The notes beneath the pieces were generated by a model. It was not told the origin of the DNA, searched no databases, and worked only from the letters and a program-made list of their open reading frames with translations. Shown piece after piece: positions 24,217 to 48,610 of a DNA stretch of 48,913 nt. The first letter of the stretch is position 1. Each line of letters starts with the position of its first letter. Source of the DNA: Lachnospiraceae bacterium (lineage in GTDB: Bacteria; Bacillota; Clostridia; Lachnospirales; Lachnospiraceae); NCBI GenBank assembly GCA_024690885.1, contig JAILOI010000009.1, forward strand, positions 1 through 48,913, written 5' to 3'. Both the position numbers and the translations under genes were made by a program.

Positions 24217-24462
24217 ATGAAAGTGCTGGTAAGGGAAGTCTTGGGGGTTCATTATCTGGTGCCAATCGGCGAGGAACATCCGGGACAAAAACCGATGGAA
24301 TTGAATGAAACTGCATATGAGATTTATCAGCTTTTATCGCGGGGGAAGACGGTAGAAGAAGTCAGTGCTTGCTTAGCCGAACAATACCGGGTTTCGCCTT
24401 CGCAGGTACAAGAAGATGTGATGTCTTGTTATAACGAGTTTTGTTCCAGGGGCATAATATAA
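24217..24462 (+). CDS. PqqD-family peptide chaperone-like protein
   Basis: 81 aa, one PqqD-like winged-helix domain (MELNETAYEIYQLLSRGKTVEEVSACL is the typical core). PqqD-type RiPP recognition elements bind the leader of a precursor peptide and present it to modifying enzymes. No Shine-Dalgarno precedes the ATG, which lies 7 bases after a -10 element, so translation is probably leaderless. It is the first gene of the long exopolysaccharide operon, an unexpected place. Two further PqqD domains occur in the window (42.8 and 46.4 kb), fused to HprK-like domains. Its partner may be the leader-bearing 152-aa protein, but that is inference. Confidence 0.8.
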   Translation: MKVLVREVLGVHYLVPIGEEHPGQKPMELNETAYEIYQLLSRGKTVEEVSACLAEQYRVSPSQVQEDVMSCYNEFCSRGII

Positions 24463-27603: not shown

Positions 27604-27636
27604 TACGAAAAGAATGTAAGAGAGGAGGATGTGCAT

Positions 27637-31966: not shown

Positions 31967-31975
31967 GGCAATTCC

Positions 31976-33394
31976 ATGAAAATCTGTATGGTGGCAGAGG
32001 GCTGTTACCCCTATGTGGTGGGCGGTGTATCCAGTTGGATTCACAGTATGATTCAGTCCTTTCCGGAATATGAATTTATCATATTGGCCATTGTGGCGGA
32101 TCGCAGTACCCGGGGAAAGTTTAAGTATGAACTGCCGGAGAATGTTTCGGCGGTCTATGAAGTTTACCTAAACGACGAGGACTGGGGTGAGAGCAAGGGT
32201 GCATCCTTTCACCTGAAGGACAAGGATTTGCAAGCCATGGAAAGCTTGCTGCTCAATGAGAATATTCAGTGGGAACAAATCTTTACCCTGATGGAAAATC
32301 CCAAGCTGTCCCTGGATGATCTGCTTATGGGCTATGACTATATGCAAGCAGTGAAGGAGTGCTATCGCCGGTATTATTCCGATGTATCCTTCTCGGACTT
32401 TCTGTGGACCATGCGCTCCATCTATTTGCCCATGCTGCATATTCTGCAGTTTCAGGTGCCGAAGGCCGACCTCTATCATTGCGTTGCCACCGGGTACGCA
32501 GGATTATTGGGCGCCATGGCCAAGCACAAGTATGGCTGTGGATTGCTGGTATCGGAGCACGGCATCTATACCCGTGAGCGCGAAGAGGAAATCATTCGTG
32601 CGGAATGGGTTCAGGGAATTTACAAAAACATCTGGATTGATCAGTTTCGTAAAATGTCGCTGGTGGCCTACCAGCGGGCGGATCTGGTGACCAGTTTGTA
32701 TGAACATGCAAGAGAGTTACAGATTGAATTGGGTTGTCCACCCCAGAAGACCATGGTAACGCCCAACGGAATCAATGCAAAACGCTTTTCCGAAGCTCCG
32801 GGCAAGTTACCGGAGGATGAGGGATTTGTGAATATTGGTGCGGTGGCCCGTGTCACTCCAATCAAGGACATTAAGACCATGATTCGTGCCTTTGGTTATG
32901 CCAAGGAGAAGGTGCCCAATTTAAAACTCTGGATTATGGGACCGACGGATGAGGAAGAAACCTATGCCAAGGAATGCTTTGATTTGGTAAACACCATGCA
33001 CATTCCGGATGTGATTTTTACCGGACGTGTCAACACGGTAGAGTACATTGGACGTATGGATTTCACCATTCTTACCAGTATCAGCGAGGGTCAGCCCCTG
33101 ACCATCCTAGAGGGCTATGCCGCAGGTAAGCCGGCCATCGCAACGGATGTGGGCAACTGCCGGGGCTTGATCTACGGAGAAAAGGACGGCTTAGGAGAAG
33201 CCGGAATTTTGACCCATATTATGAATGTGGAAGAAATCACCATCGCAATGGTGAATTTGGGAAGCAGCCCAAGGTTGGTAGAAAAGATGGGCGAGGTAGG
33301 AAAGCAGCGTGTAATGGAGAAGTATACCATCGAACACATGAAGGAAACCTACCGCAAGATTTATCAGGATTTTGAACAGTCGAAGGAGACGTAA
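31976..33394 (+). CDS. pelF: PelF glycosyltransferase (GT4 family)
   Basis: 472 aa cytoplasmic glycosyltransferase. The N-terminus (ICMVAEGCYPYVVGGVSSWI) is the PelF hallmark, and the GT-B donor motif E-x7-E is seen in SEGQPLTILEGYAAGKP. PelF polymerises UDP-GalNAc/GlcNAc into Pel and acts with PelD, PelE and PelG at the membrane. GGAGGTAAGG provides a strong ribosome site. It lies 9 bases after the DUF2194 gene and 6 bases before pelG. Confidence 0.95.
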   Translation: MKICMVAEGCYPYVVGGVSSWIHSMIQSFPEYEFIILAIVADRSTRGKFKYELPENVSAVYEVYLNDEDWGESKGASFHLKDKDLQAMESLLLNENIQWEQIFTLMENPKLSLDDLLMGYDYMQAVKECYRRYYSDVSFSDFLWTMRSIYLPMLHILQFQVPKADLYHCVATGYAGLLGAMAKHKYGCGLLVSEHGIYTREREEEIIRAEWVQGIYKNIWIDQFRKMSLVAYQRADLVTSLYEHARELQIELGCPPQKTMVTPNGINAKRFSEAPGKLPEDEGFVNIGAVARVTPIKDIKTMIRAFGYAKEKVPNLKLWIMGPTDEEETYAKECFDLVNTMHIPDVIFTGRVNTVEYIGRMDFTILTSISEGQPLTILEGYAAGKPAIATDVGNCRGLIYGEKDGLGEAGILTHIMNVEEITIAMVNLGSSPRLVEKMGEVGKQRVMEKYTIEHMKETYRKIYQDFEQSKET

Positions 33395-33400
33395 CAAGGT

Positions 33401-34846
33401 ATGGCGGGTATTGGCGTTAAGCTCAACAGACTTTATGAAAAAAATACGTTGATTACCACCTTAAGTGGAATCAGTTACAGTATGATTATCACCATTGCGC
33501 CGATGATTATCGGAATGCTGATGATCTGGGCAATGAGCTTTGTGCTGGGATTTTCGGATTTGGATTATGCCAGACGTGAGTTGTTCTCTTGTACGGTGTT
33601 GTATATCTTTATCTTTGCATTGGTGGTTACCGCCTCCTTAAATGCAGTGATTTCCCGGTACATGGCAGATGTGATTTTCCAGGAACGCTATGGAGAGATT
33701 ATGGCATGCTTTTATTACTGCCTGCTGTTAATCGTGGTGATTGCCATACTGCCCATGGTGCCCTTTTTCCTGCATGAATATCGGGTGGGCGGCGTGGACG
33801 GCGTGTTTATTTTCCTGTCCTTTTTCAGCTGCATTGCACTGGTGTTGACCTTCTACTGCATGACGTACTTATCCATTTGCAAGGACTACGCCAAGATTTC
33901 CTTGTTCTATTTGATTGGACTGGGCATTGGATTTTTACTGGCCTGGGCCCTGCATGACTGGTTTTCGGTGGATACCATCTATGCCATGTTAAGTGGTTTG
34001 GGTGTGGGATTTCTGTTTACAGCGGCGCTCGAGTATGCCCAGTTGTTAAGCTACTTCCGGGACAACAGCCATAATTACACGGCAGTAAATGCCCACTTTC
34101 GAAAGTATTGGAAGCTGATCATCGCCAATACGGCTTATATCCTGGGACTGTACTGCCACAACTTTGTGTTTTGGACCACGGACCTTCGGATGGAGGTGGT
34201 ACATACCTTCGTCTGTGCCCAGCCTTTTGATATGGCAACCTTCTTGGGTCTGTTGACCAACATTACCGCAACGACGATTTTCATCAGTAGTGTGGAGCGG
34301 CGGTTTACCTTCCGGTATCGAAAGTATTCGGAGATGGTCATCGGTGGTCGTCTATCGGATATTGAAGCGGCTCAGAAGCGATTGTTTCGCCAGCTGTCTG
34401 TGGAACTGATGGGCTTGGTACGGACTCAGTTTATCATTTCCGTTGTGCTGTATTTAGTTTTTGTGGTTGTCCTTCCGCAGCTTGGAATCTCCGGTATGGT
34501 GATGCAGATTTATCCATGTATGGCGGTGGGCTATTACATCCTGTTTTTGATGTATGCCGCATTGAACTTTTTATATTACTTCAATGACTTAAACGGTGCG
34601 TTGATGGTGGCGCTGGGATTTCTGTTTACGGATGTGGCCGTCTCCATTGTTGCCACCGGATGGCAGGAAATCTGGTATGGCATGGGGCTTGTGGCCGGTG
34701 CCTTTGTGGGTTGGACCATCGGTTATCTGCGCCTGCGTTGGGTAGAGAAGAATTTGGAACGACATATCTTCTGTGAGGCACACCTCTTGAATCGGGCCAA
34801 GGGGGCGCGTCCATCAGATATGGTATATGAAAGAAAGAAGGCTTAA
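33401..34846 (+). CDS. pelG: PelG polysaccharide exporter
   Basis: 481 aa, about twelve transmembrane helices, related to MOP-superfamily flippases. The N-terminus (GIGVKLNRLYEKNTLITTLSG) and the FIGRGFEPS-free short form fit PelG of Gram-positive clusters. It is thought to move the growing Pel chain across the membrane in step with PelF. The call is supported by direct adjacency to pelF (6 bases). Confidence 0.92.
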   Translation: MAGIGVKLNRLYEKNTLITTLSGISYSMIITIAPMIIGMLMIWAMSFVLGFSDLDYARRELFSCTVLYIFIFALVVTASLNAVISRYMADVIFQERYGEIMACFYYCLLLIVVIAILPMVPFFLHEYRVGGVDGVFIFLSFFSCIALVLTFYCMTYLSICKDYAKISLFYLIGLGIGFLLAWALHDWFSVDTIYAMLSGLGVGFLFTAALEYAQLLSYFRDNSHNYTAVNAHFRKYWKLIIANTAYILGLYCHNFVFWTTDLRMEVVHTFVCAQPFDMATFLGLLTNITATTIFISSVERRFTFRYRKYSEMVIGGRLSDIEAAQKRLFRQLSVELMGLVRTQFIISVVLYLVFVVVLPQLGISGMVMQIYPCMAVGYYILFLMYAALNFLYYFNDLNGALMVALGFLFTDVAVSIVATGWQEIWYGMGLVAGAFVGWTIGYLRLRWVEKNLERHIFCEAHLLNRAKGARPSDMVYERKKA

Positions 34847-34848
34847 AC

Positions 34849-35019
34849 ATGGTACTTGGAATTGTAGTGTTCGTATTGGCTTGCTTGGTGATCCGACTGT
34901 TGTTTTCCGAACGGGTCTTAAAACGCAAGATACAGGAGCTGGCCATGCAGGTATCCTTATTGAACCAGGAAAATGAACGTATCCGAAAACGATTGGGACA
35001 GGAAAAGAAAGCAGAATGA
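34849..35019 (+). CDS. 56-aa single-pass membrane protein with basic coiled coil
   Basis: Too short for the ORF track. ATG 34849 follows AAGAAGG; the TGA at 35017-35019 overlaps the next ATG (35016), so it fits the operon without a gap. Residues 1-20 (VLGIVVFVLACLVIRLLF) form one transmembrane helix; residues 24-56 are charged heptad-like helix (KIQELAMQVSLLNQENERIR). It could be a small subunit or scaffold of the Pel complex. No family recognised. Confidence 0.7.
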   Translation: MVLGIVVFVLACLVIRLLFSERVLKRKIQELAMQVSLLNQENERIRKRLGQEKKAE

Positions 35020-36239
35020 AACCATCCATTTTATTTGTCATGAATACAATGGGACAGGCCGGAGCAGAGATGGCATTGATCTCCATGCTCCGCAAAATCG
35101 ATCCTGAGGAATATGATATTTCCTTATACGTGTTGTTGGGCCAGGGAGAGCTCTTTGATCGCATTCCGCCCTATGTGCATATCCTGAATCGTCATTACTC
35201 GACCGATTCGGTGTTATCCACCCGGGGGCTGTTTCGTCTTGGCTTCCATCTGCTGCATCGGGGCTTATGCTATGGGGCATTTGTGCCATGGATTCCTTAT
35301 GCCATCCGAAATTATCGGGCTATGAAGAAGCAGCGGGGACGAATCCAGCTGGATAAGTTGTGCTGGAAGATGCTTTCCGATGGTAGCCGCAGATTCCATA
35401 AGGAGTATGATTTGGCGGTTGCTTTCATTGAGGGAGCATCCACCTATTATGTGGCCAACCACGTACGGGCAAAGCAGAAGGCTGCCTTTGTACATGTGGA
35501 TTACCATCTGGCGGGATATACCACAGATTTGGATGGCAATGCCTATGACAAGATCCATCAGATTTTTGCTATCTCAGATGAAGTGAAGAAGGCCTTCCTG
35601 GGGGTTCATCCGGAATGCCGGGAGAAGACCAAGGTATTCCACAACATCCTAGATCAAAATCGTATCCGTACACTTGCCAAGGAAGGGGATGGGTTTACGG
35701 ATGGATACCGGGGAATTCGATTGTTGACGGTGGGACGATTGAACGTGCAGAAAGCCTACGAGATTGCCATCGAAGCCTTGGCGTTACTTCGGGATTGGGG
35801 ATATGAGGTACGCTGGTATGCCCTGGGGGAGGGCCCCATGCGTGAGGATTTGGAACGTAAGATCATTAAGCGTGGGTTGAAGGAGGATTTTCTGCTCTTA
35901 GGAGCCATGGAGAATCCCTATCCCTATTTTTTGAATTGTGATATCTATGTGCATGCCACCCGTTTTGAAGGCAAAAGCATTGCGGTGCAAGAAGCCCAGA
36001 CCTTAGGTTGCCCCATTATCGTCAGTGATGTAAACGGTAACCGGGAACAGGTGGAGCATGAGGTGGACGGACTGATTTGTGCCTTGCAGCCGAAGGCTGT
36101 GGCAGAGGCCATCGTCTATATGATCAAACATCCGATTGAGCGGGCCAAGATGGCCAAGCTTGCAGGGGAGAAGGAATTAGAACATGCGCAGGAACTGGAA
36201 GCATTATTGGCCTGCGCCAGAGGGGAGTCATCCGTATGA
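35016..36239 (+). CDS. Glycosyltransferase family 4 protein
   Basis: 407 aa GT-B enzyme. The N-terminal acceptor half starts with SILFVMNTMGQAGAEMAL; the C-terminal donor half has TVGRLNVQKAYEIAI and the E-x7-E motif in RFEGKSIAVQEAQTLGCP. It transfers a sugar from a nucleotide donor, probably in the cytoplasm; donor and acceptor cannot be told. Overlaps both neighbours by 4 bases (ATGA). It is additional to the core Pel genes and suggests a side chain, primer or second glycan. Confidence 0.9.
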   Translation: MKPSILFVMNTMGQAGAEMALISMLRKIDPEEYDISLYVLLGQGELFDRIPPYVHILNRHYSTDSVLSTRGLFRLGFHLLHRGLCYGAFVPWIPYAIRNYRAMKKQRGRIQLDKLCWKMLSDGSRRFHKEYDLAVAFIEGASTYYVANHVRAKQKAAFVHVDYHLAGYTTDLDGNAYDKIHQIFAISDEVKKAFLGVHPECREKTKVFHNILDQNRIRTLAKEGDGFTDGYRGIRLLTVGRLNVQKAYEIAIEALALLRDWGYEVRWYALGEGPMREDLERKIIKRGLKEDFLLLGAMENPYPYFLNCDIYVHATRFEGKSIAVQEAQTLGCPIIVSDVNGNREQVEHEVDGLICALQPKAVAEAIVYMIKHPIERAKMAKLAGEKELEHAQELEALLACARGESSV

Positions 36240-37048
36240 AGAAAGACTTATTGATTATCATACCTGCCTACAATGAGGAGGAGTGCATCGAGGATGTGTT
36301 GGACGCACTGGAGTGCCCCGAGATTCGGGAAATCGCTGATGTACTCATTATGAATGATGCCTCCAGCGACAATACCAGTTGGATTGCCAAGAAGCGGAAA
36401 TACAAGGTGATTACCCATGTCTTCAACTTAGGCTATGGAAGCGCCATTCAGTTGGGCTATAAATATGCGGTACGTCGCCGCTATGATTACGTCATCCAGA
36501 TGGATGCAGACGGCCAGCATGATGTCAACAATATTCCACGTATCTATGAGGAACTAAAGAAGGCAGATGCAGATGGTCGCTATCCGGATATTGTGTTAGG
36601 TTCCCGCTTTCTGCCGGGAAGCTCCGAGTTTCACGTGGGTGGATGCAAAAAGTTCGCCATCCGCTTGTTCCGGCACTATATCCGCAGACATACCCATGTT
36701 AGCATTCAGGATCCCACCAGTGGATTGCAGGGTCTTCGGTTTCCGGCCTTTTTGTATTACTCCAAGTATGGACACTTTGATGAACGTTATCCGGATGCCA
36801 ACATGATTCTACAGATGCTGTTGTTGGGCTATCGGATTCGGGAGATTCCGGCTACCATGCATGCCAGAGAAACCGGCAAGAGCATGCACTCCGGCTTACG
36901 TCCCATCGGCTATATGCTGCATATGGCTTGTTCCTTGTTATGGATCACCTATCAGTATCAATTTAAGAAAAAGGATGCCGGAATAGGAGAGAGCGGTGCG
37001 ATTTCTACGAAAAAATATACCGACGAAAAAACGGAAATTTACGGATAG
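36236..37048 (+). CDS. Glycosyltransferase family 2, polyprenyl-phosphate sugar synthase-like
   Basis: 270 aa GT-A enzyme. Motifs IIIPAYNEEECIEDV, MNDASSDNT and the metal-binding DAD in IQMDADGQHD are clear, as is the DPM1-like DPTSGLQGLR. No long transmembrane region. Such enzymes load a sugar onto undecaprenyl phosphate, and GT-C proteins use that product; the 27.6-kb gene is the candidate user. The gene overlaps the following one by 53 bases. Confidence 0.9.
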   Translation: MKKDLLIIIPAYNEEECIEDVLDALECPEIREIADVLIMNDASSDNTSWIAKKRKYKVITHVFNLGYGSAIQLGYKYAVRRRYDYVIQMDADGQHDVNNIPRIYEELKKADADGRYPDIVLGSRFLPGSSEFHVGGCKKFAIRLFRHYIRRHTHVSIQDPTSGLQGLRFPAFLYYSKYGHFDERYPDANMILQMLLLGYRIREIPATMHARETGKSMHSGLRPIGYMLHMACSLLWITYQYQFKKKDAGIGESGAISTKKYTDEKTEIYG

Positions 37049-38159
37049 TGGAGCAGTTTTTCAAAATCCTTATCAGGGCTGGTATCGGCCCTATCTGTTT
37101 CCGCTGAATCAAGCGGTGGACTGGGAGGAACTTCCCTGGGTGATGGTGGAAGCGGAACCCCTGTGCCTGTTGGAGTTTGATCTATCCGCCTATGCATCCG
37201 GTAAGATATCGGAGGAGGGGTTGCTTCGGTGCAAGGAGATTTTGGACTTTTTTCAAAGCCATCACAAGCAGATGATCCTCCGTTTTGCCTATGATTATGA
37301 GGGCAAGGCGATGGTCAAGGAGCCAACCGATGTTGAAATCATCTATGAACATATGAAGCAGGTGGCCCGGGTGGTTGTGGACTATGCGCGCAGCCTGGTT
37401 TGTATCCAGGGCTTATTTGTAGGCAACTGGGGAGAGATGCATTCTTCCCGGTATGATACCACCACAAGCTTGGATGGGTTGTATGAGACGTTCCGGGATG
37501 CTTTTGGAGAGCGTGTGATATTAGGCGTACGGCGATTGGAGTTATTCCTTCGCTGGAGCGCACAGGATGCACGCATTAGTTTATTTGATGACGGAATCTG
37601 TGGGTCGGAGAATGACCTGGGGACCTATGAGATGTCCAGGTATGAGGCCTATGAGATTCTGCAGCAGAAGATGGGATGCCTTCCGGTGGGGGGTGAACTG
37701 CTTTCCATGGGCCTGCTGGATGGATGCTTTGATGCGGAGCGGGTGCGAAAGACCTTTCAAGGAATGCAGCTATGTTATCTCAACAGTCAGTATGAGAAGC
37801 GTGCCCTGGAGCTTTTGGATACCTGGGGCCTTCGGGCGGAACTGAATCTTCGGATGGGGTATCGCCTTCTTGTGACAGATGCCAAACTGCAAGATGGCAG
37901 ATGGCAGATTTGTGTGGAGAATGTGGGGTTTGGTGGCCTGGCATTTCCACTGACCCTATTCCTGTTTGGAGATGGGCAGTTGTGTGAACAACAATATTGG
38001 GGGGACGGAATCAAACCGGGGGAGCGGATATCGGTGATGTTTGCCGGAGAATGGAAGGCAGGCACCTATGATATCCAGGGTAGTATCTATGACGCTGCTA
38101 TTACCTTTGCCAATGAAGGTGGTATGGCGGTACGAATCGGTGAGGTGTTACATGCGTAA
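36996..38159 (+). CDS. DUF4874/DUF4832-like TIM-barrel protein, copy 1 (no signal peptide)
   Basis: 387 aa. The N-terminal barrel shows NPYQGWYRP, LRFAYDYEG, GLFVGNWGEMHSSRY and FDDGICGSENDLGTY, motifs with conserved acidic residues as in glycosidase-like barrels. The C-terminal part (about 290-380) looks like a beta-sandwich (VENVGFGGLAFPL). It starts with GTG 36996 inside the preceding gene, supported by AGGAGA 5 bases upstream. A membrane-anchored paralogue follows. Probably a glycan-acting enzyme or binding protein, but no activity is established. Confidence 0.75.
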   Translation: MRFLRKNIPTKKRKFTDSGAVFQNPYQGWYRPYLFPLNQAVDWEELPWVMVEAEPLCLLEFDLSAYASGKISEEGLLRCKEILDFFQSHHKQMILRFAYDYEGKAMVKEPTDVEIIYEHMKQVARVVVDYARSLVCIQGLFVGNWGEMHSSRYDTTTSLDGLYETFRDAFGERVILGVRRLELFLRWSAQDARISLFDDGICGSENDLGTYEMSRYEAYEILQQKMGCLPVGGELLSMGLLDGCFDAERVRKTFQGMQLCYLNSQYEKRALELLDTWGLRAELNLRMGYRLLVTDAKLQDGRWQICVENVGFGGLAFPLTLFLFGDGQLCEQQYWGDGIKPGERISVMFAGEWKAGTYDIQGSIYDAAITFANEGGMAVRIGEVLHA

Positions 38160-39588
38160 CGTATTCCTTCGACTGTTGTTGATTTTGGGCTTGACCAGTG
38201 CTTTGGGCATGGGAGCCGTAGTGAATGAGCAATGGTTGCAGTCTCTGTATCATATGAAGTTCCAGCCGGCTGATTTGGCGGCCGGTGGAGAGAAACTGGA
38301 GAATCCGGATTGCGGATGGTATGAGATGTTTGGGTATGAGCTTTCCGACAATGGAAGCCTGCTGTCCTTGATTGCATCTCATATTCGTTCGGCGGATACG
38401 TCCAATGCTCTGGTACTGCTACAAGTGAACCTAAAGGCCTATGCTTCCGGTGATATCAGTGCGGCGGCGTTGGGCCAGCTGGATGATATTCTTCGCCTCT
38501 GGGAGGAGGAAGGTTACCATCTAATCTTACGGTTTGTCTATGATTGGGAAGGCCGGGGACTTGCTACAGAACCCGGGGAGCGCTCCATCATTGAGAGACA
38601 CATGCAGCAGGTGGCCGGGGTGGTGAATGCCCACAAAGACAGTGTCTATGTGGTACAAGGCGTCTGTATCGGTAATAATGGGGAGATGAATGCTTCCAAG
38701 TATATGGACCCTGAGGATTTGCGCAGCTTAATGAACACCTATGCCACTGCCTTAGACCCCGAGATATTTCTGGCGGCACGGACCCCGGAACATATTCGAA
38801 TCATACGTAAATCCGAGACACCGCTGTCACAGGAGGACGCCGGTCATGAGACCATGGATGCACGTCTGGGCTTGTTTGATGATGGGATGCTTGGCTCCGA
38901 AACGGATTTGGGTACCTATGGGGATGCGGATTATCCCCTGGATGCGGAGTTTGCCGGGAAGAAAAGCCGGCAGCAGGAGCTGGCTTATATCAATCAGCTG
39001 TGTCGCTATGTCCCCTGTGGTGGGGAATGCGTATACGATACCCCTTATTCCGACGGAGCGGCGGCCATTGAGACACTGAATACCATGCATGTCAGTTATT
39101 TAAACCAGATGTATGATCCGACGGTACTTGCGAAGTGGAAAAGAACTGCTTACAACGGTGGGGAAGCGGGATTTGCCGGGAAAAGTGTCTATGATTACAT
39201 TGGTACCCACCTGGGATATCGCTATGTGGTAACGGATGTGACGGCAGCTCATGAGCTTCTGGGAGCGTCGGATACCACGGTTACGATGCACGTCACCAAC
39301 GTGGGATTTGCTCCTGCGTATCGGAGGTATGATTCCGCTTTGGTTTTGTACAATGAAGCGGGAGATGTGGTGTTAGAGCAGCCGGTGGAGGTTGATAATC
39401 GCAGTTGGCAACCGGGGGAGGAAATCTCTCTGGAAATGCATCTGCAACCGGGAAGTTTGGAACGCGGACGTTATCTGTTGTATTTCCAACAACAAGATGG
39501 AGGAAGCAAGCAATGGATTTCCTATGGCAATGGTACAACGACAGACCATCCCGGCGTATATTTAGGAACGATGGAACTTAAGGATTGA
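38152..39588 (+). CDS. DUF4874/DUF4832-like TIM-barrel protein, copy 2 (membrane anchored)
   Basis: 478 aa. Residues 5-25 form a signal anchor (FLRLLLILGLTSALGMGAVV). The barrel repeats the motifs of copy 1: ENPDCGWYEM, LRFVYDWEG, GVCIGNNGEMNASKY and FDDGMLGSETDLGTY, with a C-terminal beta-sandwich (VTNVGFAPAYRRY). ATG 38152 overlaps the stop of copy 1 and has GTGAGGTG upstream; the track start at 38041 is too early. It probably acts outside the membrane on the exported polymer; it may do the job of the hydrolase domain missing from the PelA-like gene (inference). Confidence 0.78.
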   Translation: MRNVFLRLLLILGLTSALGMGAVVNEQWLQSLYHMKFQPADLAAGGEKLENPDCGWYEMFGYELSDNGSLLSLIASHIRSADTSNALVLLQVNLKAYASGDISAAALGQLDDILRLWEEEGYHLILRFVYDWEGRGLATEPGERSIIERHMQQVAGVVNAHKDSVYVVQGVCIGNNGEMNASKYMDPEDLRSLMNTYATALDPEIFLAARTPEHIRIIRKSETPLSQEDAGHETMDARLGLFDDGMLGSETDLGTYGDADYPLDAEFAGKKSRQQELAYINQLCRYVPCGGECVYDTPYSDGAAAIETLNTMHVSYLNQMYDPTVLAKWKRTAYNGGEAGFAGKSVYDYIGTHLGYRYVVTDVTAAHELLGASDTTVTMHVTNVGFAPAYRRYDSALVLYNEAGDVVLEQPVEVDNRSWQPGEEISLEMHLQPGSLERGRYLLYFQQQDGGSKQWISYGNGTTTDHPGVYLGTMELKD

Positions 39589-39605
39589 TACGGAGATTTG
39601 AGACT

Positions 39606-41141
39606 ATGGAGTCACGCTCACGCACGGAAAATTCAGCGAGAAATTCTTCCGTTGCATTGATATCACAACTGTTATCCCTGCTGATGGGATTCTTACTTCG
39701 GATTGTGTTTACCCACACCCTAAGCAAGGATTATGTGGGAGTCAATGGCTTGTTTTTGGATATTATCTTCATTCTCTCCCTATCGGAATTGGGCGTGGGA
39801 AGTGCCATTACCTATGCACTATACGGACCCATTGAACGGCAGGATATCGAAAAACAAAAAAGCCTGATGGCTCTATTCCGGAAGTTTTATCACGGCGTCG
39901 CATTACTGGTACTGGCGCTGGGATTGCTGCTGATTCCTTTTATGGATGTCATCATCAAGGAACCGCCGGAAGTGAATCACCTGACGCTGATTTATCTGTT
40001 TTATCTGGCCAATGCGGTATCCAGTTATTTTATGATCTACAAGCGGACCTTGATGGACGCCCATCAGCTGTCCTATATTGGTACGCTGTATATGACAATA
40101 TCCTGGGTGATTCAGGACGCCATCCAGATTGTGGTACTTCTTACCACCCACAATTTTATTTTGTATTTATCCATCAATCTGGTGACCACCATCACCACCA
40201 ATATCTTAATTTCCAGGAAGGCAGATCGGATGTATCCCTTCCTCAAGGAGAAGCAGGTGGCAGCGGTTCCAAAGGAGGAACTGTGTGAAATCAAGCGCAA
40301 TGTGGGTGCCATGTTTTTACACAAGATGAGTGCTGTTATTGTCAATAATACGGACAATCTGTTAATTTCCGCCTTCGTTGGTATTGTCAGCGTTGGAAAA
40401 TATTCCAATTACCTGCTGATTACCCAGTCCTTGCGCACCATTGTGAAAAACTTCTTTCAGGGGATTATGGCAAGTGTGGGAAATCTGGGAGTATCCAAAG
40501 ACCGGATGCGCCTGGGTGAGATTTTTCACACCACCTTGTTTGTGAATCAGTGGGTGAGCTGCTTTTGCACCATTATGTTGTTTGAGATTTTCAACCGCTT
40601 CATCGCCATCTTTTTCGGTGCGGTGTATGTGTTTGAACTGCCGGTGGTGGCAATGATATGTATTAATTTCTATTTGGGTTCTCTGCGGGAAGGCATCCTG
40701 GTGTTTCGGGATTCCCTGGGGGTTTTCTGGTACGATCGCTACAAGGCCGTGGCTGAAGCTGTGGTGAATCTGGTGGCCTCCATCATTTTGGCAAAACTAT
40801 ACGGAACCGCCGGAGTATTTCTTGGCACCATCATTTCCACCTTAAGTACCTCGGCCTGGGTGGAGCCCTATGTGCTGTATAAGTATCGCCTGCAGCGACC
40901 GGTATGGGAATACTGGAAGCGGATGTTATTATATGTGCCGGTGGGGGGTGTGATTTTTGCCCTGACCCACAGCATCTGTTCCTTGTACCGGGGTAGCCTC
41001 TGGCAGGAACTTCTATACCGTGCGGGAATTTGTTTGATCCTTCCCAATGTGTTGCTGTTGCTGGTGTATATGCGTAGCAGGGAGTTTCAATTTTTGTTGC
41101 AAAAAGGATGGTCCTTATGGAAGAATCGAAAAGAAAGCTAA
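39606..41141 (+). CDS. Polysaccharide flippase (Wzx-like, MOP superfamily)
   Basis: 511 aa, 12-14 transmembrane helices. The N-terminus (SRTENSARNSSVALISQLLSLLMGFLLR) and GVNGLFLDI are typical of O-antigen/teichoic acid flippases. It would flip lipid-linked oligosaccharides. ATG 39606 with GGAG 10 bases upstream is preferred to TTG 39585. A flippase in addition to PelG means that the operon probably exports a second, lipid-linked glycan. Confidence 0.9.
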   Translation: MESRSRTENSARNSSVALISQLLSLLMGFLLRIVFTHTLSKDYVGVNGLFLDIIFILSLSELGVGSAITYALYGPIERQDIEKQKSLMALFRKFYHGVALLVLALGLLLIPFMDVIIKEPPEVNHLTLIYLFYLANAVSSYFMIYKRTLMDAHQLSYIGTLYMTISWVIQDAIQIVVLLTTHNFILYLSINLVTTITTNILISRKADRMYPFLKEKQVAAVPKEELCEIKRNVGAMFLHKMSAVIVNNTDNLLISAFVGIVSVGKYSNYLLITQSLRTIVKNFFQGIMASVGNLGVSKDRMRLGEIFHTTLFVNQWVSCFCTIMLFEIFNRFIAIFFGAVYVFELPVVAMICINFYLGSLREGILVFRDSLGVFWYDRYKAVAEAVVNLVASIILAKLYGTAGVFLGTIISTLSTSAWVEPYVLYKYRLQRPVWEYWKRMLLYVPVGGVIFALTHSICSLYRGSLWQELLYRAGICLILPNVLLLLVYMRSREFQFLLQKGWSLWKNRKES

Positions 41142-42385
41142 CAACTGCACAAGTGCGATTCCTCAATCTGATGAAGGCCTGGTTTTTGCAGGAAGAGGAA
41201 GGGGTCTTCTCGGAGTTTAGCGACGCAGAGATTGGTGGCGTGGTGGCCATTGCGCGAGAGCAGGGACTGCTGGGATTTGTTTATGCCTATCTCTATACCT
41301 ACCACCGCAATCGTGTTTCTACCAAGTGGCTGGATGCCTTGCAACGGGAAATTAAGCCACTGATTACCAATAACTACAGTTTATGGCAGCAAACCATCCA
41401 TCTGTTTCGCAAGATTCATGAGGCAAAGCTGCCCTGCCTACTACTCAAGGGACCGGCAATCGCAAATTATTATTCCATTCCGGAGTTGAGAAAATCCGGC
41501 GATGTGGATTTGTGGATGTATCAACCGGATACGCCGGCCGCCCGTGGGGAAGTGTATTACGGGCAGGATTTCATAACCTTGAATGAACTGCTGAAGGCCG
41601 ATGGTTATGTAACCAACCCCAGCCAGCATGCCAATCATCACATCGGTTATCTGAAGGACGGCTGTGGAGAAGTGGAAGCCCATGCCTTGTGGATGGAGGA
41701 TTTTCACAAGCATTGGGTGAATGAAGAAATTGCCTCCTACGCCCAGAGTGCCTATCAGCGGGCTATGGAATTGGAGTTATTCCCGGGAGAACACATCAAA
41801 ACCTTAGCACCCGGGGATTTAGCGCTGCAGATGTTGTTACATATGTTGCAGCATTATCTGACCCAGGGCTTTGGATGGAAGTTTCTCTGTGACTGGACAG
41901 CCATCTGGAATCATCCGGATACCATGGCAGCCATAGAGGAAGTGAAACAGAAGGTGAGGGACTGGCATCTGGAAACCTTTGTCAGTTATTGTTGTTGGAT
42001 TTCCAACAAATATTTGGGCATGAAGGATGCGCCGGCCCAGGCACTTTTGCTGCGGGAGGTGCGCGAGGACATTGCCATGGAATTGATGAGCGAGATGTTT
42101 GCGGCCGGTGAATTCGGTGACGGAGAAGAAGGCCGTATGGTGGCGCCGGAGGGCAAGGGGGTCCTTGGGCTGGTGATGGAATTCCATCATCAGATGCGCC
42201 GAAATCATTATGAAGCATCGAAATCCTATTGGAAGTGGCCCTATTTATGGGTGGTGACTTTGGTGGAATTCATTCGTAACAATCATGCCATACGAAATAC
42301 GTCCACGAGACAGATTATCGCCAATGCAAGACGGCGGGGAAAGCTTCGGAGACAAATGCAACTTTTTAAAGAAGACGGGCAGTAA
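41117..42385 (+). CDS. Nucleotidyltransferase-like protein (PF14907 type)
   Basis: 422 aa. The motif LLLKGPAIANYYS (about 108-120) followed by KSGDVDLWM (126-134) is the signature of the uncharacterised nucleotidyltransferase family found in RiPP clusters such as lasso peptide operons. The acidic DVD would bind metal. ATG 41117 is preferred; it overlaps the flippase gene by 25 bases. It opens the four-gene module NTase, peptidase, PqqD-kinase, ABC exporter. The substrate could be a phosphorylated peptide or a glycan. Confidence 0.82.
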   Translation: MEESKRKLTTAQVRFLNLMKAWFLQEEEGVFSEFSDAEIGGVVAIAREQGLLGFVYAYLYTYHRNRVSTKWLDALQREIKPLITNNYSLWQQTIHLFRKIHEAKLPCLLLKGPAIANYYSIPELRKSGDVDLWMYQPDTPAARGEVYYGQDFITLNELLKADGYVTNPSQHANHHIGYLKDGCGEVEAHALWMEDFHKHWVNEEIASYAQSAYQRAMELELFPGEHIKTLAPGDLALQMLLHMLQHYLTQGFGWKFLCDWTAIWNHPDTMAAIEEVKQKVRDWHLETFVSYCCWISNKYLGMKDAPAQALLLREVREDIAMELMSEMFAAGEFGDGEEGRMVAPEGKGVLGLVMEFHHQMRRNHYEASKSYWKWPYLWVVTLVEFIRNNHAIRNTSTRQIIANARRRGKLRRQMQLFKEDGQ

Positions 42386-42397
42386 AGGGAGACAGAT

Positions 42398-42862
42398 ATG
42401 GAGAAGACAGATGTAGTGAAGCTGTTGCAAGAGGGGCAGACGGTGCAGATTATGCCCAAGGGGTTTAGTATGTATCCGCTGATTATTCCGGGACGGGATT
42501 CGGCGATTCTTCGTTCCATCGAAGATACGGAAGGTCATCGGGGCGATGTGGTGTTGTTTCGTCGGGAAGATGGAACCCTGGTGTTACATCGCATCTGGCA
42601 GGTGAGCAGCGCCGGTTACTTTTTCGTGGGGGACAATCAATTGGAAATTGAGGGCCCCATCAATCGTCGGCAGTTGTTGGGAATTGCATCGGGATTTGTG
42701 CGGAAGGGCAAAACCTTTTCCACAAAGCATCCCGCATATCGCATCATAAGTGGATTATGGCTTGTGTTGCGGCCGTTTCGCTATGTGATTGAAACGCCGG
42801 TGGCACTGGTAAGGAGAGCATATGGACATTGCAAAAAACTTTCTTCGGAAAAAATGCGGTGA
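42398..42862 (+). CDS. S24/S26-like signal peptidase, Ser/His type
   Basis: 154 aa. Ser24 in KGFSMYPLI is the expected nucleophile; the general base is His64 in LVLHRIW rather than Lys, as in SipW/ER-type signal peptidases, and GDN (78-80) ends the core. Only one weak C-terminal hydrophobic stretch (about 115-130) is seen. It may cut the leader of the 152-aa protein (45.7 kb), acting with the ABC exporter. It overlaps the next gene by 41 bases. Confidence 0.82.
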   Translation: MEKTDVVKLLQEGQTVQIMPKGFSMYPLIIPGRDSAILRSIEDTEGHRGDVVLFRREDGTLVLHRIWQVSSAGYFFVGDNQLEIEGPINRRQLLGIASGFVRKGKTFSTKHPAYRIISGLWLVLRPFRYVIETPVALVRRAYGHCKKLSSEKMR

Positions 42863-43955
42863 GTATACGTACTTGCTGCCATATGGACAGGCCGTAGTGG
42901 AACAGGGCCGAAGCGTCAAGCTGGATGCCCATGCAACCCACCTGTTGGATGTGCTCTTAGAGGCAAAGAATGTGGAGGAAGCAACGCAGTCATTGCTGTC
43001 GCAGGGCGAGATGGAAGCGGACTTTCGTCATCTGATTGCGACATTAGAACAGGCCGGTGCACTTTCTGTGGATGAGGAGCCCCAGCTTTCGGTCAGGGAG
43101 GAGACGATGCGCTTTTCCATCGGTGGGCGGAGGATATCCTTCGTTGGGGCACCACGGTACGTGGCTCGGGAACTTTTGGATTTTTGCGTTGAGACTTCGG
43201 AGGATGCCCCGGATGGACGTTTTGTTTTGTGCGGCGGAAATCCGCCCCATCATGGAATGGGCGAAGTGTTGGTACATCACGAGGATTTACTGATTCTAAG
43301 AGAGGATGCATGGTTGTATTATCTCTATCCCAATCATCGGTATTTACGGGAGATGGTGATGGATGTGGATGGACAAGTGGCCAATGCGTATCTGCCCTTT
43401 TTGGATGAGGATACGCCGGCGGTAACAGCAGAGATTTTTCTTGCCATGCGCCAGGCCTTTTTCTATGGGGCCGCTCTTGCCAATCGGTATGCAATTCATT
43501 CTGCGTCCGTATTATATGAGGGGAAGGCCTATTTGTTTTCCGGTCCCTCCGGCATGGGGAAATCCACTCAGGCCAATTTATGGAAGCAGTGCTTCGGCAC
43601 AGAGATATTCAATGGGGATGTTAATCTTGTTTCCATAGAAGCAGACGGTGCCTATGTATGGGGACTGCCCTGGAACGGAACTTCCGGGATTTATCGGGAT
43701 GGCAGAGTGCCACTGGGTGGTATCATATATTTGCGGCAGTCGTTGGAAAATCAGGTGGAAGTGCCGGATGCGGGAGATCTGGTGGTAGCAACGGTACAGC
43801 GGTTGATTTCGCCAACCTACACCGAAGGACTGTATCAGAAGGCGTTTTCCTTTGCCAAGCAGCTGCAAGGGAAGATTCCCATGTGGCGGTTGTATTGCAA
43901 TCCCACGCCGCAGGCGGCAGAAATCATGAAGGAATGCATAGATGAATATCGTTAA
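42822..43955 (+). CDS. PqqD-HprK-like kinase fusion
   Basis: 377 aa. Residues 10-85 form a PqqD-like domain (TYLLPYGQAVVEQGRSVKLDAHATHLLDVLLE). Residues 95-370 are HPr-kinase-like: HSASVLYEGKAYLFSGPSGMGKST with Walker A at 241-248, then FNGDVNLV with an acidic metal ligand near 266 and GLPWNGTSG. In lasso peptide clusters such as paeninodin, HprK-like kinases phosphorylate the precursor. Here the fused PqqD domain could hold the leader. ATG 42822 has AAGGAGAG upstream. A paralogue lacking Walker A lies at 46.4 kb. Confidence 0.85.
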   Translation: MDIAKNFLRKKCGEYTYLLPYGQAVVEQGRSVKLDAHATHLLDVLLEAKNVEEATQSLLSQGEMEADFRHLIATLEQAGALSVDEEPQLSVREETMRFSIGGRRISFVGAPRYVARELLDFCVETSEDAPDGRFVLCGGNPPHHGMGEVLVHHEDLLILREDAWLYYLYPNHRYLREMVMDVDGQVANAYLPFLDEDTPAVTAEIFLAMRQAFFYGAALANRYAIHSASVLYEGKAYLFSGPSGMGKSTQANLWKQCFGTEIFNGDVNLVSIEADGAYVWGLPWNGTSGIYRDGRVPLGGIIYLRQSLENQVEVPDAGDLVVATVQRLISPTYTEGLYQKAFSFAKQLQGKIPMWRLYCNPTPQAAEIMKECIDEYR

Positions 43956-45702
43956 GAAATGTTATGAAAAAATGAAAGACGGCACCCTGAAGCGCATGGT
44001 GCAGGAGACCATCTGGATTTATGCCTATGCCAAGCGGTATTTTCCACAGATGGTGTTATATACCGCACTCGGAATGGGCGGTATCCTGTTAAGCTTTGGT
44101 TCGAGCCTGGTGTCCAAGGATATGATTGATATCATTACCGGACAGCGGGTGGGGGAGTTAATGAAGTACTTCCTCGTTACCATCGGACTTGCAGTGGTGA
44201 GTTTGCTTTTTACCCAGATTACCACCTTTTTGAATATGATCATCTCACAGAAGGTGGACAACGAGCTGCGCCAGGAGATGTTTGAAAAAATCATGGTGAC
44301 GGATTGGGAGAGCATTACCAAGTACCACAGTGGTGATTTGCTGGCGCGTTGGGCCGGCGACACCTCGTTGATTGCGTCCGGGTTATTAAACTATATTCCC
44401 AATGCCATTATGGCACTGTTGAAGTTTTTTGGTGCCTTGTTTATTGTGATTCGTTACGACTGGACCTTTGCCGTGTTTGCCCTGCTGGGTGCACCGGTGA
44501 GCTTGTTTATGTCCCGGTTTTTGATGTCACGCATGCGAAACAACAACGATCGTTCGGCCCAGATGCAGGCACGGATGAGCGGGTTTAACCAGGAGGCCTT
44601 CGTCAACATCCAAACCATCAAGGCCTTTGATTTAGTGCCACTGTATATTTCTTACTTAAAGGATATCCAGAAGGATTACTTGGAGATGCGGGTGGACTTC
44701 CAGAAGTTGTCCATGAAGACGTCCATCATTATGTCGGTGGTGGGCATGATTGTGTCCTACAGTTGTTATGGTTGGGGAATTTATCGTGTGTTTAGCGGAG
44801 CCATCACTTATGGAACCATGACCTTGTTTCTGTCCATGTCCGGAAATCTGACGGCGGCGTTGAATACCTTGATTTCCTTGGTCCCATCGGTGATTTCCAT
44901 GACGACTTCTGCAAGGCGACTGATGGATATCGAAGAGATGCCGACGGAGGATTATTCCAAGCGTTCCGAAGCATTGGCGTTTGCCGATGCTCACAAGCAG
45001 GAGGGAATTTCCGTAACGTTGGAACAGATGTCTTATACCTATCACACCGGTACCCATGTGTTTGAGAAGACCGGGTTTGAAGCCCATCCCCATGAGATTG
45101 TAGCTTTGGTTGGCCCCAGCGGAGAAGGGAAGACCACCATGCTTCGTCTGTTGCTTGCTCTGTTAAAGCCCCAGGAAGGACGCTGCATCCTCTCATCGAA
45201 CACCGGGGATGCACTGGAGATTGCGCCCTATTCCAGACAGTTGTTTGCTTATGTGCCCCAGGGCAATACCATGTTTTCCGGAACCATTGCGGAAAACTTA
45301 CGGAAGGTAAAGCCTGAGGCTTCGGAAGAAGAATTGCGTCAGGTGTTACAGATGGCTTGTGCCTGGGAATTTGTGGAGCAGATGCCGGATGGCATGTATT
45401 CCTCCCTGCAGGAGCGGGGCGGCGGTATTTCCGAGGGGCAGGCCCAGCGTTTATCCATTGCCAGAGCCCTGCTTCGGCAGGCCCCCATCCTTCTATTGGA
45501 TGAAGCCACCAGTGCCTTGGATGTGGAGACGGAGCGCCGGGTATTACGCAACATTATGAAGGATACCTATCCGAGAACCTGTATTGTAACTACCCATCGT
45601 CCCACGGTATTATCCATGTGCGACCGGGTATATGGTATTGCCGGAAAGCAATGTGTGGTACTAAGTCAGGAAGAAGTGCAGAAGCGCATTATGGATTTTT
45701 AG
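43942..45702 (+). CDS. ABC exporter (fused membrane and ATPase domains)
   Basis: 586 aa. Six transmembrane helices (about 35-320), then the ATPase: Walker A GPSGEGKT (391-398), signature ISEGQAQRLSIARALL, Walker B ILLLDEATSALD, and a switch His (TTHRP). No C39 peptidase domain, so the leader would be cut by the separate S26-like enzyme. Likely exports the modified 152-aa protein. Overlaps the kinase gene by 14 bases; a strong terminator follows. Confidence 0.92.
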   Translation: MNIVKKCYEKMKDGTLKRMVQETIWIYAYAKRYFPQMVLYTALGMGGILLSFGSSLVSKDMIDIITGQRVGELMKYFLVTIGLAVVSLLFTQITTFLNMIISQKVDNELRQEMFEKIMVTDWESITKYHSGDLLARWAGDTSLIASGLLNYIPNAIMALLKFFGALFIVIRYDWTFAVFALLGAPVSLFMSRFLMSRMRNNNDRSAQMQARMSGFNQEAFVNIQTIKAFDLVPLYISYLKDIQKDYLEMRVDFQKLSMKTSIIMSVVGMIVSYSCYGWGIYRVFSGAITYGTMTLFLSMSGNLTAALNTLISLVPSVISMTTSARRLMDIEEMPTEDYSKRSEALAFADAHKQEGISVTLEQMSYTYHTGTHVFEKTGFEAHPHEIVALVGPSGEGKTTMLRLLLALLKPQEGRCILSSNTGDALEIAPYSRQLFAYVPQGNTMFSGTIAENLRKVKPEASEEELRQVLQMACAWEFVEQMPDGMYSSLQERGGGISEGQAQRLSIARALLRQAPILLLDEATSALDVETERRVLRNIMKDTYPRTCIVTTHRPTVLSMCDRVYGIAGKQCVVLSQEEVQKRIMDF

Positions 45703-45709
45703 CAAGAAA

Positions 45710-45740
45710 AAAGACAGAGGAGAAATCCTCTGTCTTTGTT
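45710..45740. terminator. Strong bidirectional terminator at the end of the Pel/export operon
   Basis: Perfect 12-bp stem AAAGACAGAGGA / TCCTCTGTCTTT with a GAAA tetraloop, A-run before and T-rich tail after. It separates the 21-kb plus-strand operon from the convergent precursor gene. Confidence 0.9.
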
Positions 45741-45743
45741 TGA

Positions 45744-46202
45744 TTAATCGATGTTTGGATAATTTGGAGTGCCGGTTTTCTCGCAGTTTAAAATCACCGG
45801 AGACGGAGCACCAAGTGCAATGGTGGATGCCTGATCAGCTGCGTTTACAAATACCTTGTAGGTAACGGTATCTCCGGAGTATTCGCCATTGGCATGGTGG
45901 ATACGACGTACGGTTACAATATTACCGGATACGCTGACTTCGTAATTGCCGCTGCCTTCTGCGTAAGCACTCACAACAGGTGCACCGAAGGTGTACTGTA
46001 CGGTACAGGATTCGGAAAAATGGCTGACCGCACTGCTGTGTACCAAATGCATTTCATAGACATGAGAAGCACCGTTCCAATCCTGAACACTCTGTACGGA
46101 AACAGACCAACAGGTGGCTGTAGCGATGGAGCCGCTGGCTGCAAAAATGCTCTCTGACATGTCGTCACTCATAACTACTACTGGTTGTTCATAAGTCTTC
46201 AT
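45744..46202 (-). CDS. Leader-bearing small exported protein with CBM2-like pattern; candidate substrate of the PqqD/kinase/ABC module
   Basis: 152 aa. The first ~24 residues (KTYEQPVVVMSDDMSESIFA + ASG) look like a RiPP-type leader, acidic and without a Sec hydrophobic core. The rest (about 30-152) is beta-rich. CWSVSVQSVQDWNG and the run SGNIVTVRR ... HANGEYSGDTVTYKVFV resemble the W..G / N..I..G pattern of family 2 carbohydrate-binding modules. Cys31, Cys66 and Cys140 could form a disulfide. It has its own near-perfect promoter and a GGGGGTAG ribosome site, as expected of an abundant substrate. It converges on the exporter operon and is flanked by both PqqD-HprK genes. No function is known; the substrate role is inference. 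Confidence 0.75.
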   Translation of the reverse strand: MKTYEQPVVVMSDDMSESIFAASGSIATATCWSVSVQSVQDWNGASHVYEMHLVHSSAVSHFSESCTVQYTFGAPVVSAYAEGSGNYEVSVSGNIVTVRRIHHANGEYSGDTVTYKVFVNAADQASTIALGAPSPVILNCEKTGTPNYPNID

Positions 46203-46286: not shown

Positions 46287-46359
46287 TTCCCTTTTCCCGG
46301 TTCCTTGGCAAATGTGGATGAGTGGTCCTTTACCCAAACTTCCTAGATGATGAAAAAAA

Positions 46360-46368
46360 TGGTAAAAT
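46360..46368 (+). promoter_or_regulatory. Extended -10 promoter of the pseudokinase gene
   Basis: TGGTAAAAT (TGN plus TAAAAT) preceded by GATGAAAAAAA, closely like the pattern upstream of the PqqD/Pel operon. No good -35. Start near 46375, about 37 bases before the ATG. Confidence 0.5.
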
Positions 46369-46411: not shown

Positions 46412-47614
46412 ATGAAAATACGCAAAGAATATATGATTAAGTATATTGAAGGAATTCCGTATTTACTTCCGTATGGACAGGGCATTGCCCAGTCCTTCCG
46501 GAGCCTGCGCTTAGATGCAGATGAAGTGTTCCTATGGGAATACATGCTGCGTGGCTATGATGAGGTCGAATGCATGCATCGCCTATGCGCACACTTAGGG
46601 GTTGGAGAAACCCATCGGAGTGCGGTAGAAGCGAAGGTGACGGATTTTTTCTCCATGCTGGAACAATTGCAGATTATTGACCGGAGGTCCCATCAACTCA
46701 TTGGACCGCTGGAGGATTATGACCTGTTTGAAGTAGCCGGGCTTTTGATTTGCTACAGTGGTCCCAAGGAATACATTGCCCGGGAGTTAGAACCGTTTCG
46801 GATGGATTCGGTGATGGTGCCGGCCAATTGGAAAGACGGAGAGTGCCTAGAACGCCCCATACAGCGGGTGGAGATTGTATTATCCGGTCCGCGGATTTTG
46901 GCAGTCGGTGAGATTCTGATGCGTACACCGGAAGTGATTGTGTATGCAGATGAGCGGCACTATTATTATCTGTTTCCACAGAATACCTGCGTTCATGAGA
47001 TGCGGGTACGCAAGAATGGTTCCAAGGCGGTGATTTTTGTCAGCAATCTGGTTGGACGAGAAGATGTCATCACCCGGGAAGTGTACGAGGCGATGTACCA
47101 AAGCTTTTTGGTTTACGGACTGGCACATCACAAATATGCGATTTCTTCCTTATCCCTGCAGTATCAGAAGCGAGGCTTTCTGTTTTTGGAAAGTGACGCA
47201 GAGGATTGGAGTAATTTGATTGAACTGCTTTCCACGATGTCCAACGTACAACGTTGCAATTATCGGACCACCATGGTAGAACTTTCCGGTGAGGAAGCGC
47301 GGATGTGGAACATCCCATGGGGCAGCTGCAACGATGCACCCGGACGGGAGTCCATGCATTTGGGCGGTATTGGCCTTTTGCGTCAATCGAAAACCAATCA
47401 TGCGGTTATCAAAACGCCGAGCGAACGCATCTTACGGACCAGCTTCGGTGTGGTTTCACCACAGTTTTCTGCAGATTTGGTGGAGCACACCATCGATTTT
47501 TGTACCCGCTTATACGATGTGGTTCCAATCTGGCGATTGCACTGTAATCAGTCACCGGAAGCTTTGGCATTCATTCAACGCATTGTGGACGATGAATTAT
47601 CTGATGAAACATAG
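46412..47614 (+). CDS. PqqD-HprK-like pseudokinase (Walker A lost)
   Basis: 400 aa. The N-terminal PqqD-like domain shares YLLPYGQ with the active paralogue at 42.8 kb, and the rest aligns along its whole length (for example PLGGIIYLRQS versus HLGGIGLLRQS; IPMWRLYCN versus VPIWRLHCN). The Walker A GPSGMGKST is replaced by ESDAEDWSN (260-268), FNGDVNLV by CNYRTTMV, and the HS before it by SS. ATP binding and phosphotransfer are therefore not expected; a leader-binding or regulatory role is more likely. ATG 46412 has GGTGAGGGG 6 bases upstream; the track start at 46322 lies before the promoter. Confidence 0.85.
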   Translation: MKIRKEYMIKYIEGIPYLLPYGQGIAQSFRSLRLDADEVFLWEYMLRGYDEVECMHRLCAHLGVGETHRSAVEAKVTDFFSMLEQLQIIDRRSHQLIGPLEDYDLFEVAGLLICYSGPKEYIARELEPFRMDSVMVPANWKDGECLERPIQRVEIVLSGPRILAVGEILMRTPEVIVYADERHYYYLFPQNTCVHEMRVRKNGSKAVIFVSNLVGREDVITREVYEAMYQSFLVYGLAHHKYAISSLSLQYQKRGFLFLESDAEDWSNLIELLSTMSNVQRCNYRTTMVELSGEEARMWNIPWGSCNDAPGRESMHLGGIGLLRQSKTNHAVIKTPSERILRTSFGVVSPQFSADLVEHTIDFCTRLYDVVPIWRLHCNQSPEALAFIQRIVDDELSDET

Positions 47615-47629
47615 AATTGAGACAGTAGA

Positions 47630-48610
47630 ATGAAAACAATTGATGAACAGTTGAAATCCGGCAACTTAAAACCGGCGTATCTTTTATATGGGGATGAGGA
47701 TTATCTGAAGCAGATGTATCGCAAGCGTCTCTTGGCGGCCACCGTCAAGGAGGGGGATACCATGAACTTCATGTCCTACGAAGGTGCCTCCATTAATGTG
47801 CATGAGGTGATTGACTTCGCGGACACCATGCCTTTTTTCGCAGACAGTCGTGTGGTTTTGGTGGAGAACAGCGGATTTTTTAACCGTTCCGTCGATGATT
47901 TGGCGGACTACTTCTCCCACATGTCAGAGACGGCCTTTCTGGTGTTTGTGGAAGAGAAGGTGGACAAGCGCAGTCGCACCTACAAGGAGTTTGCCAAGGT
48001 TGGCGAAGTGGTGGAATTGAAATTTCCGGATGAGAAGGAATTGCAGGCCTGGGTCGGTGGTCGCGTAAAGCGTGCCGGCAAACAGATTACCATGGATGCC
48101 TGGGAGGAGTTTCGGAATCGTTGCTCCACCAATATGGAGAACATGGATCGGGAGTTGGACAAGCTTTTGGATTATTGTGCTGACAAGCCTGCCATCTCCA
48201 AGAAGGACGTGATGGACATCTGCATTGATTCCTCGGAAGAGCGGATGTTTGTTCTTGTGGACGGAATGGGAGAGAAGAACGCCAGGAAGACCATGATGGC
48301 TTACCAGGACATGCTGTCTCGTAAGGTTTCCCCCATGTACATCCTCGGTTCTCTGGAGGGGCAGATTCGTTCCATCCTCCAAACCAAGGTTTATCTGAAT
48401 CAGGGCATGCGTAAACCGGACATTCAGAAAGCACTCGGTTTGAAATATGCCTTCTTCGTAGATAAGTACCAGAAGATGGGCAAGAACTTTTCCGAAGGTC
48501 AGTTGGAGCGGATGCTGATTGAATGTGCGTCCTTCGATGAACAGATGAAGTCCGGCAAGTTGGATCCCCAGGTCGCCGTGGAAATGCTCCTTTTAAAATA
48601 TGCCAAGTAA
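47630..48610 (+). CDS. holA: DNA polymerase III delta subunit
   Basis: 326 aa. Clamp-loader delta subunit, which opens the beta clamp at primed DNA. The N-terminal LKPAYLLYGDEDYLKQMY and the three-domain AAA-like layout with a helical collar fit the family, and the length is normal. The start has only a weak ribosome site (GACAG). In many Firmicutes it follows comEC closely; here a 24-kb block lies between them. Confidence 0.95.
   Translation: MKTIDEQLKSGNLKPAYLLYGDEDYLKQMYRKRLLAATVKEGDTMNFMSYEGASINVHEVIDFADTMPFFADSRVVLVENSGFFNRSVDDLADYFSHMSETAFLVFVEEKVDKRSRTYKEFAKVGEVVELKFPDEKELQAWVGGRVKRAGKQITMDAWEEFRNRCSTNMENMDRELDKLLDYCADKPAISKKDVMDICIDSSEERMFVLVDGMGEKNARKTMMAYQDMLSRKVSPMYILGSLEGQIRSILQTKVYLNQGMRKPDIQKALGLKYAFFVDKYQKMGKNFSEGQLERMLIECASFDEQMKSGKLDPQVAVEMLLLKYAK

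Follow-up and report, generated by a model that had tools for sequence, protein, structure and literature searches.

The window analysed here is a stretch of 48,913 nucleotides from a Lachnospiraceae bacterium (contig JAILOI010000009.1). Close to its end lies a gene for a predicted pseudokinase, located between a gene module for a putative modified peptide and holA (Table 1). The pseudokinase gene has 400 codons without interruption, from an ATG at 46412, preceded by a GAGGGG Shine-Dalgarno sequence, to the end at 47614. The same frame is already open from a GTG at 46322.

Table 1. Features of the pseudokinase locus and of the region upstream of it, with positions in the window.
Feature	Position	Strand	Description
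Discrete PqqD/RRE protein	24226-24459	+	78 aa; PF05402 (47 bits); flanked by a TP_methylase gene and exopolysaccharide genes
Pel-like exopolysaccharide locus	24479-39588	+	DUF2194, PelF-like DUF3492 glycosyltransferase, PelG, tandem DUF4874/DUF4832 (x2); adjoins the module
Wzx-like flippase	39585-41141	+	Recurs beside the NTP transferase in related clusters
NTP_transf_5 nucleotidyltransferase	41108-42385	+	LppN/PsmN-like; PF14907, 108 bits
Signal peptidase I, archaeal-type/SipW-like	42398-42862	+	LppS-like leader peptidase; TIGR02228 and SipW models, below cut-off
Active paralogue kinase	42822-43955	+	RRE-HprK fusion with intact GPSGMGKST, HSAS, NGD and PWNGTS; LppB+LppK-like; activity predicted
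MsbA-like ABC exporter	43942-45702	+	LppD-like
Terminator-like hairpin, bidirectional	45710-45737	.	Lies at the end of both the module operon and the precursor gene that converges on it
Precursor-like protein	45744-46202	-	152 aa; leader YEQP...SESIFAASG, then predicted CBM2-like beta-sandwich core
Extended -10-like element	46360-46368	+	TGGTAAAAT (TGRTARAAT); conserved upstream of the pseudokinase in four species
Pseudokinase	46412-47614	+	Fusion of a remodelled RRE/PqqD-like domain (residues 1-93, approximately) with an HprK-like domain (215-400, approximately) that is predicted to be catalytically dead
holA (DNA polymerase III delta)	47630-48610	+	Marks the conserved position of the pseudokinase

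In linear polyphosphorylated peptide (LPP) systems the YxxP leader is bound by an RRE, LppB, which presents it to the signal peptidase and is needed for SpI cleavage; a core Ser is polyphosphorylated by LppK (PMC13381572). Judged by gene content, the module in the window appears to match these systems, with the component set present together and the RRE not discrete. A SipW-like signal peptidase, an RRE, an HprK-like kinase, an NTP transferase, an MsbA-like exporter and a YxxP precursor are in common with the LPP RiPP systems (Popov et al. 2026, PMC13381572), as are the location in a polysaccharide locus and the lack of a macrolactam synthetase. However, RRE and kinase form a single fusion protein here, a discrete RRE lies about 18 kb away, and the leader ends in EGVYAASG instead of FETxxS. 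Further differences are the precursor core, predicted to fold as a CBM2-like domain, and the second, apparently catalytically dead RRE-kinase; phosphorylation is a prediction in our case. The lasso tailoring kinases PadeK, ThcoK and PsmK are also of the HprK type, and in pseudomycoidin the kinase is partnered by an NTP transferase (PMC9266682). Unlike these, the kinase in the window carries its own RRE and the pseudokinase has no P-loop. Among the proteins scanned from 10074 to 48610, no asparagine-synthetase-like lasso cyclase and no B2 peptidase were found.

The core of the precursor was modelled as a CBM2-like beta-sandwich (pLDDT 75), with a Cellulomonas cellulose-binding domain as the best PDB match. 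The Ser and Gly of the AASG motif were invariant among the aligned precursors, which makes this Ser a candidate phosphate acceptor. The precursor belongs to a Lachnospiraceae family of small proteins with the leader YxxP...[AST]EG[VI][FY]AASG, comprising 86 proteins from 68 loci (L060-L160, some records duplicated). Its members occur one to three per cluster, adjoining a fused RRE-HprK kinase, and have at least three unrelated-looking cores: CBM2-like, an 'HQ..GRGDYRIQV' type and a short Cys-rich 'CDSKYMNG' type. In 16 other genera the module gene set recurs, partially or as a whole, around one intact kinase. Of 47 further well-flanked loci, 44 have the exporter, 39 the peptidase, 35 a precursor, 29 the NTP transferase and 26 the flippase, and none has holA. 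A discrete RRE similar to the one in the window was also seen in another genome of the same genus (G001, contig C99).

The pseudokinase and the active kinase of the module align from end to end with 26% identity (147 bits), in agreement with the sequence-only reading of the locus, which had taken the pseudokinase for a full-length paralogue of that kinase. Single-sequence Pfam searches matched no family in the pseudokinase and gave only weak matches in the active kinase. Neither protein matches PF07475 (Hpr_kinase_C), for which the sole match in the genome sits on another contig, and both are by Pfam outside the canonical HprK/P. The AlphaFold2 model of the pseudokinase, made from a 41-row alignment, had a pLDDT of 87. 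With Foldseek it gave matches to the PEPCK/HprK fold over its length, although full-length PEPCK superpositions were loose (rmsd approximately 11 A), and the N terminus matched the lasso RRE TbiB1 (5v1u) with a TM score of 0.77. The family kinase profile scored the pseudokinases at 224-241 bits. The earlier domain reading, PqqD-HprK, is thus right for the RRE-HprK family, and full-length homology, loss of conserved residues and selection together place the pseudokinase in this family as judged from sequence comparison.

The P-loop GPSGMGKST was found to be ESDAEDWSN in the pseudokinase, exactly as had been claimed. As a reference for conservation we used 40 active kinases, with 57 columns conserved in at least 90%, and separately 16 aligned active kinases with 32 invariant columns. 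Against the 40 kinases, 29 of the 57 conserved columns are kept and 28 lost in the window pseudokinase, which bears out the replacement of further residues at the ATP and metal sites. Among the lost residues are all of the P-loop (GxSGxGKST) but one Ser, the HSAS His, both G and D in NGD (now NYR), the GTS in PWCGTS, and R346. Structural motifs (YLLPYGQ, PW and LGGI among them) are retained, in line with the flanking motifs noted earlier as kept, and the sequence is not scrambled. Common to all four pseudokinases known from the genus are Lys to Trp in the P-loop, His to Ser or Thr in HSAS, NGD to N[YHR]R and PWCGTS to PWGS, and all four share a new invariant RCNxRT. From these losses the protein is predicted to be devoid of ATP and kinase chemistry.

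A profile built from the RRE parts of the family found TbiB1 (5v1u, E 8.8e-6), weakly LppB (9x8z, E 0.018), and also weakly PbaB1 and TfuB1, whereas a single-sequence RRE search against PDB gave only chance matches. We mapped the published leader contacts of LppB onto 82 active kinases and the four pseudokinases. The position of Asp70, which bonds the leader Tyr, holds an acid in 79 of the 82 active kinases (D 75, E 4), but Y, K, T and K in the pseudokinases. At the position of Val35, T or S was found in 76/82 active kinases and D in 4/4 pseudokinases, and at Tyr60 Y or F in 71/82 as compared to K, L, R and L. The Asn33 position is N in 75/82 active kinases and D in all pseudokinases; D also occurs there in TbiB1 and in the window's own active kinase. 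The hydrophobic pocket positions L32, C39, F74, M78 and L83 are kept in kind. The two RRE-kinases had been proposed to share leader-binding domains. The fold is retained according to the model, but with the leader-Tyr Asp and two to three further conserved residues of the TbiB1- and LppB-type pocket rewritten in all four copies, YxxP-leader binding by the pseudokinase is unsupported by its sequence.

The pseudokinase had further been credited with its own promoter. A consensus promoter scan upstream of the gene was not above chance (2 sites, 1.9 expected). However, in 4/4 orthologues the ATG is preceded, at a distance of 27-43 nt, by the extended -10-like element, within DNA that is otherwise poorly alignable, with a chance of about 1% per sequence for a motif that was picked after the fact. 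The gene is also separated from the module operon by the terminator-like hairpin. Taken together, the pseudokinase probably has its own promoter, and it may be co-transcribed with holA, as suggested by the close spacing (a gap of 12-27 bp in all four species).

The genus of the window DNA was sampled as four genomes (G000 to G003). The three others all carry an orthologue of the pseudokinase directly upstream of holA, 49-80% identical among themselves. We looked for a homologue with an intact Walker A motif at this position in all four genomes and found none; each of the four copies is without Walker A. Such homologues had been named beforehand as the sign of a simply decaying copy, and their absence speaks for the pseudokinase reading. 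For the pseudokinases of G001 and G003 (80% identical) the dN/dS was 0.092 (bootstrap 0.056-0.132), and for the kinase-derived (HprK) part 0.086 (0.044-0.139); the synonymous distance in this pair, the sole close one, is 1.4 and near saturation, so these values are approximate. The per-position differences (0.15, 0.10, 0.45) agree with constraint. Between the window and G002 the pseudokinases are 54% identical and the live kinases 36%, as compared to 79% for holA and 80% for the ABC exporter; by this comparison the dead copy seems more constrained than the live kinase. In the module itself (window 41108-43955 against L078 1445-4302, congeners), the kinase (36%), NTP transferase (43%) and signal peptidase (49%) have diverged, while the flanking genes change far more slowly (exporter 80%, flippase 74% and precursor 70% identity).

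In a tree of 46 proteins the four pseudokinases formed one clade (support 100/100), with which the genus's two active kinases grouped (98/93). The stem of the pseudokinase clade was 1.83 changes per site and its tips 0.08-0.49. A smaller tree supported the six-protein group of pseudokinases and genus kinases with 94/92. Because of this single clade with a long stem and short tips, the pseudokinase most likely arose by one duplication inside the genus, followed by rapid change and then constraint. A single-sequence search of the genome contigs with the kinase found nothing, and an alignment-based search yielded 588 relatives. A phylogenetically wide pseudokinase family was rejected: among 94 distinct full-length RRE-HprK proteins, the P-loop Lys is absent only from the copies of this genus and from one protein of another genus (G026). 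The latter, at L076 9744-10850 (+), is isolated and independently degenerate (GPAGTEKNK, NPNRN), with no module nearby, in a genome that is 60% complete and has no congeners for constraint testing. The variant P-loop at another locus, L098, belongs to an active kinase and not to a pseudokinase.

The proposed pairing with an active paralogue was found in two genomes, G000 and G002, where the complete module lies beside the pseudokinase. In G001 pieces of the module lie beside it. One contig (C258) stops within the NTP transferase and another (C281) begins at the precursor; the missing kinase is explained by these contig ends, and the gap leaves the pairing undecided for this genome. G003 (91% complete, 20 contigs, the best-assembled species) does not show the pairing. 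Here comEC, the pseudokinase and holA are contiguous, and the approximately 23 kb that lie between comEC and the pseudokinase in the window, with the Pel-like exopolysaccharide locus and the module, are absent. Neither a kinase nor a precursor, an NTP transferase, PelG or a matching ABC exporter was found in G003 by profile or family searches, the best ABC match being distant (25%). Nevertheless the G003 pseudokinase has an intact frame, the promoter-like element and a Shine-Dalgarno sequence. Polarised nonsynonymous to synonymous changes were 29:29 in G003 and 19:28 in G001 (p = 0.43), and G003 departed from otherwise agreed positions 13 times, G001 6 times. Continued selection and a recent loss of the module both fit this pattern.

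What the protein does can be weighed from these results. A decaying duplicate that is kept by chance might be expected of a paralogue that has lost its active-site motifs, but the frame is open in four species, both halves are under strong purifying selection and no intact-Walker homologue occurs at the position, all of which makes this very improbable. The pseudogene reading, which had already been argued against, was rejected on the dN/dS and the orthologues. We instead favor, with a probability of about 0.55, a lineage-specific pseudoenzyme under selection that works by protein binding, as a non-catalytic partner or scaffold. Binding is probable rather than catalysis because the catalytic and the usual leader-gripping residues are lost, yet the protein is kept intact. 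Most likely the pseudokinase binds a partner, with the active kinase or the module as the likeliest; we infer both the binding and the identity of the partner. The activator or adaptor role first suggested for the pseudokinase is possible. A precedent counted in favor of a non-catalytic scaffold is EcpK, which takes part in exopolysaccharide synthesis in Myxococcus; this bacterial tyrosine pseudokinase is a proposed scaffold with EpsV as partner (PMC12004946). EcpK is likewise a P-loop kinase relative that has lost its catalytic residues and is tied to polysaccharide machinery, but it belongs to the BY-kinases and not to HprK, so the comparison is an analogy only. Counted against the partner reading are G003, where the pseudokinase is kept although module genes were not found, and the approximately 80 other distinct RRE-HprK loci that work without such a copy.

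The main rival to binding of a partner in the kinase pathway is an autonomous role outside it, in which a doubly 'blinded' RRE-pseudokinase, independent of its parent kinase and selected alone, serves another process as, for example, a regulator or scaffold, or protects non-producers as an immunity factor or sensor. The intact G003 gene beside no detectable module, the lack of significant relaxation in that lineage and the rewritten leader pocket speak for it. The other three genomes retain the pseudokinase beside the module, G003 is just 91% complete, and its more numerous departures would fit a recent loss, so we regard this role as possible but clearly the less likely one. A subfunctionalised leader presenter, showing the leader to the signal peptidase as LppB does while the dead kinase domain serves as a tether or as a reader of the phosphorylated product, was an early favourite. 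The RRE fold with its TbiB1 match, the part of the RRE in SpI cleavage and the hydrophobic pocket positions kept in kind agree with such a role, and the Arg in place of the metal-site Asp could, with a second invariant Arg, bind phosphate. It was downgraded after the contact mapping and is now rather unlikely: the Asp that bonds the leader Tyr (D/E in 79/82 active kinases) and the equivalent of Tyr60 are replaced, and the pocket Thr/Ser is Asp in 4/4. More doubtful still is a repurposed enzyme that has exchanged kinase chemistry for another activity. New invariant residues (W266, R281, C282, N283, R285 and T286) do cluster in the former active site, but none of the nucleotide and metal ligand motifs remains, and a new acid/base/metal triad is not apparent.

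For the favored reading of a binding partner or scaffold, the following course can be proposed. The RRE-HprK fusion kinase belonging to an LPP-like peptide-modification system would most likely have been duplicated in the ancestor of the genus, and one copy would have settled upstream of holA with its own promoter. A burst of change may then have removed the ATP and metal chemistry together with the conserved YxxP-leader contacts, after which purifying selection would have set in. The resulting pseudokinase would most likely serve the LPP-like and exopolysaccharide-associated machinery as a scaffold or non-catalytic subunit, the leading form being a hetero-oligomer with the active kinase.

The literature searched yielded neither an HprK-type pseudokinase nor any pseudokinase from such a RiPP pathway. 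The module family extends LPP-like systems widely over Lachnospiraceae, with folded cores that are predicted to be carbohydrate-binding-like. An active and a dead RRE-kinase in one locus offer a clean natural contrast, and G003 a species apparently stripped of all but the dead copy. It is now directly testable whether non-catalytic partners are required by RRE-kinases, or whether dead ones take on separate jobs.
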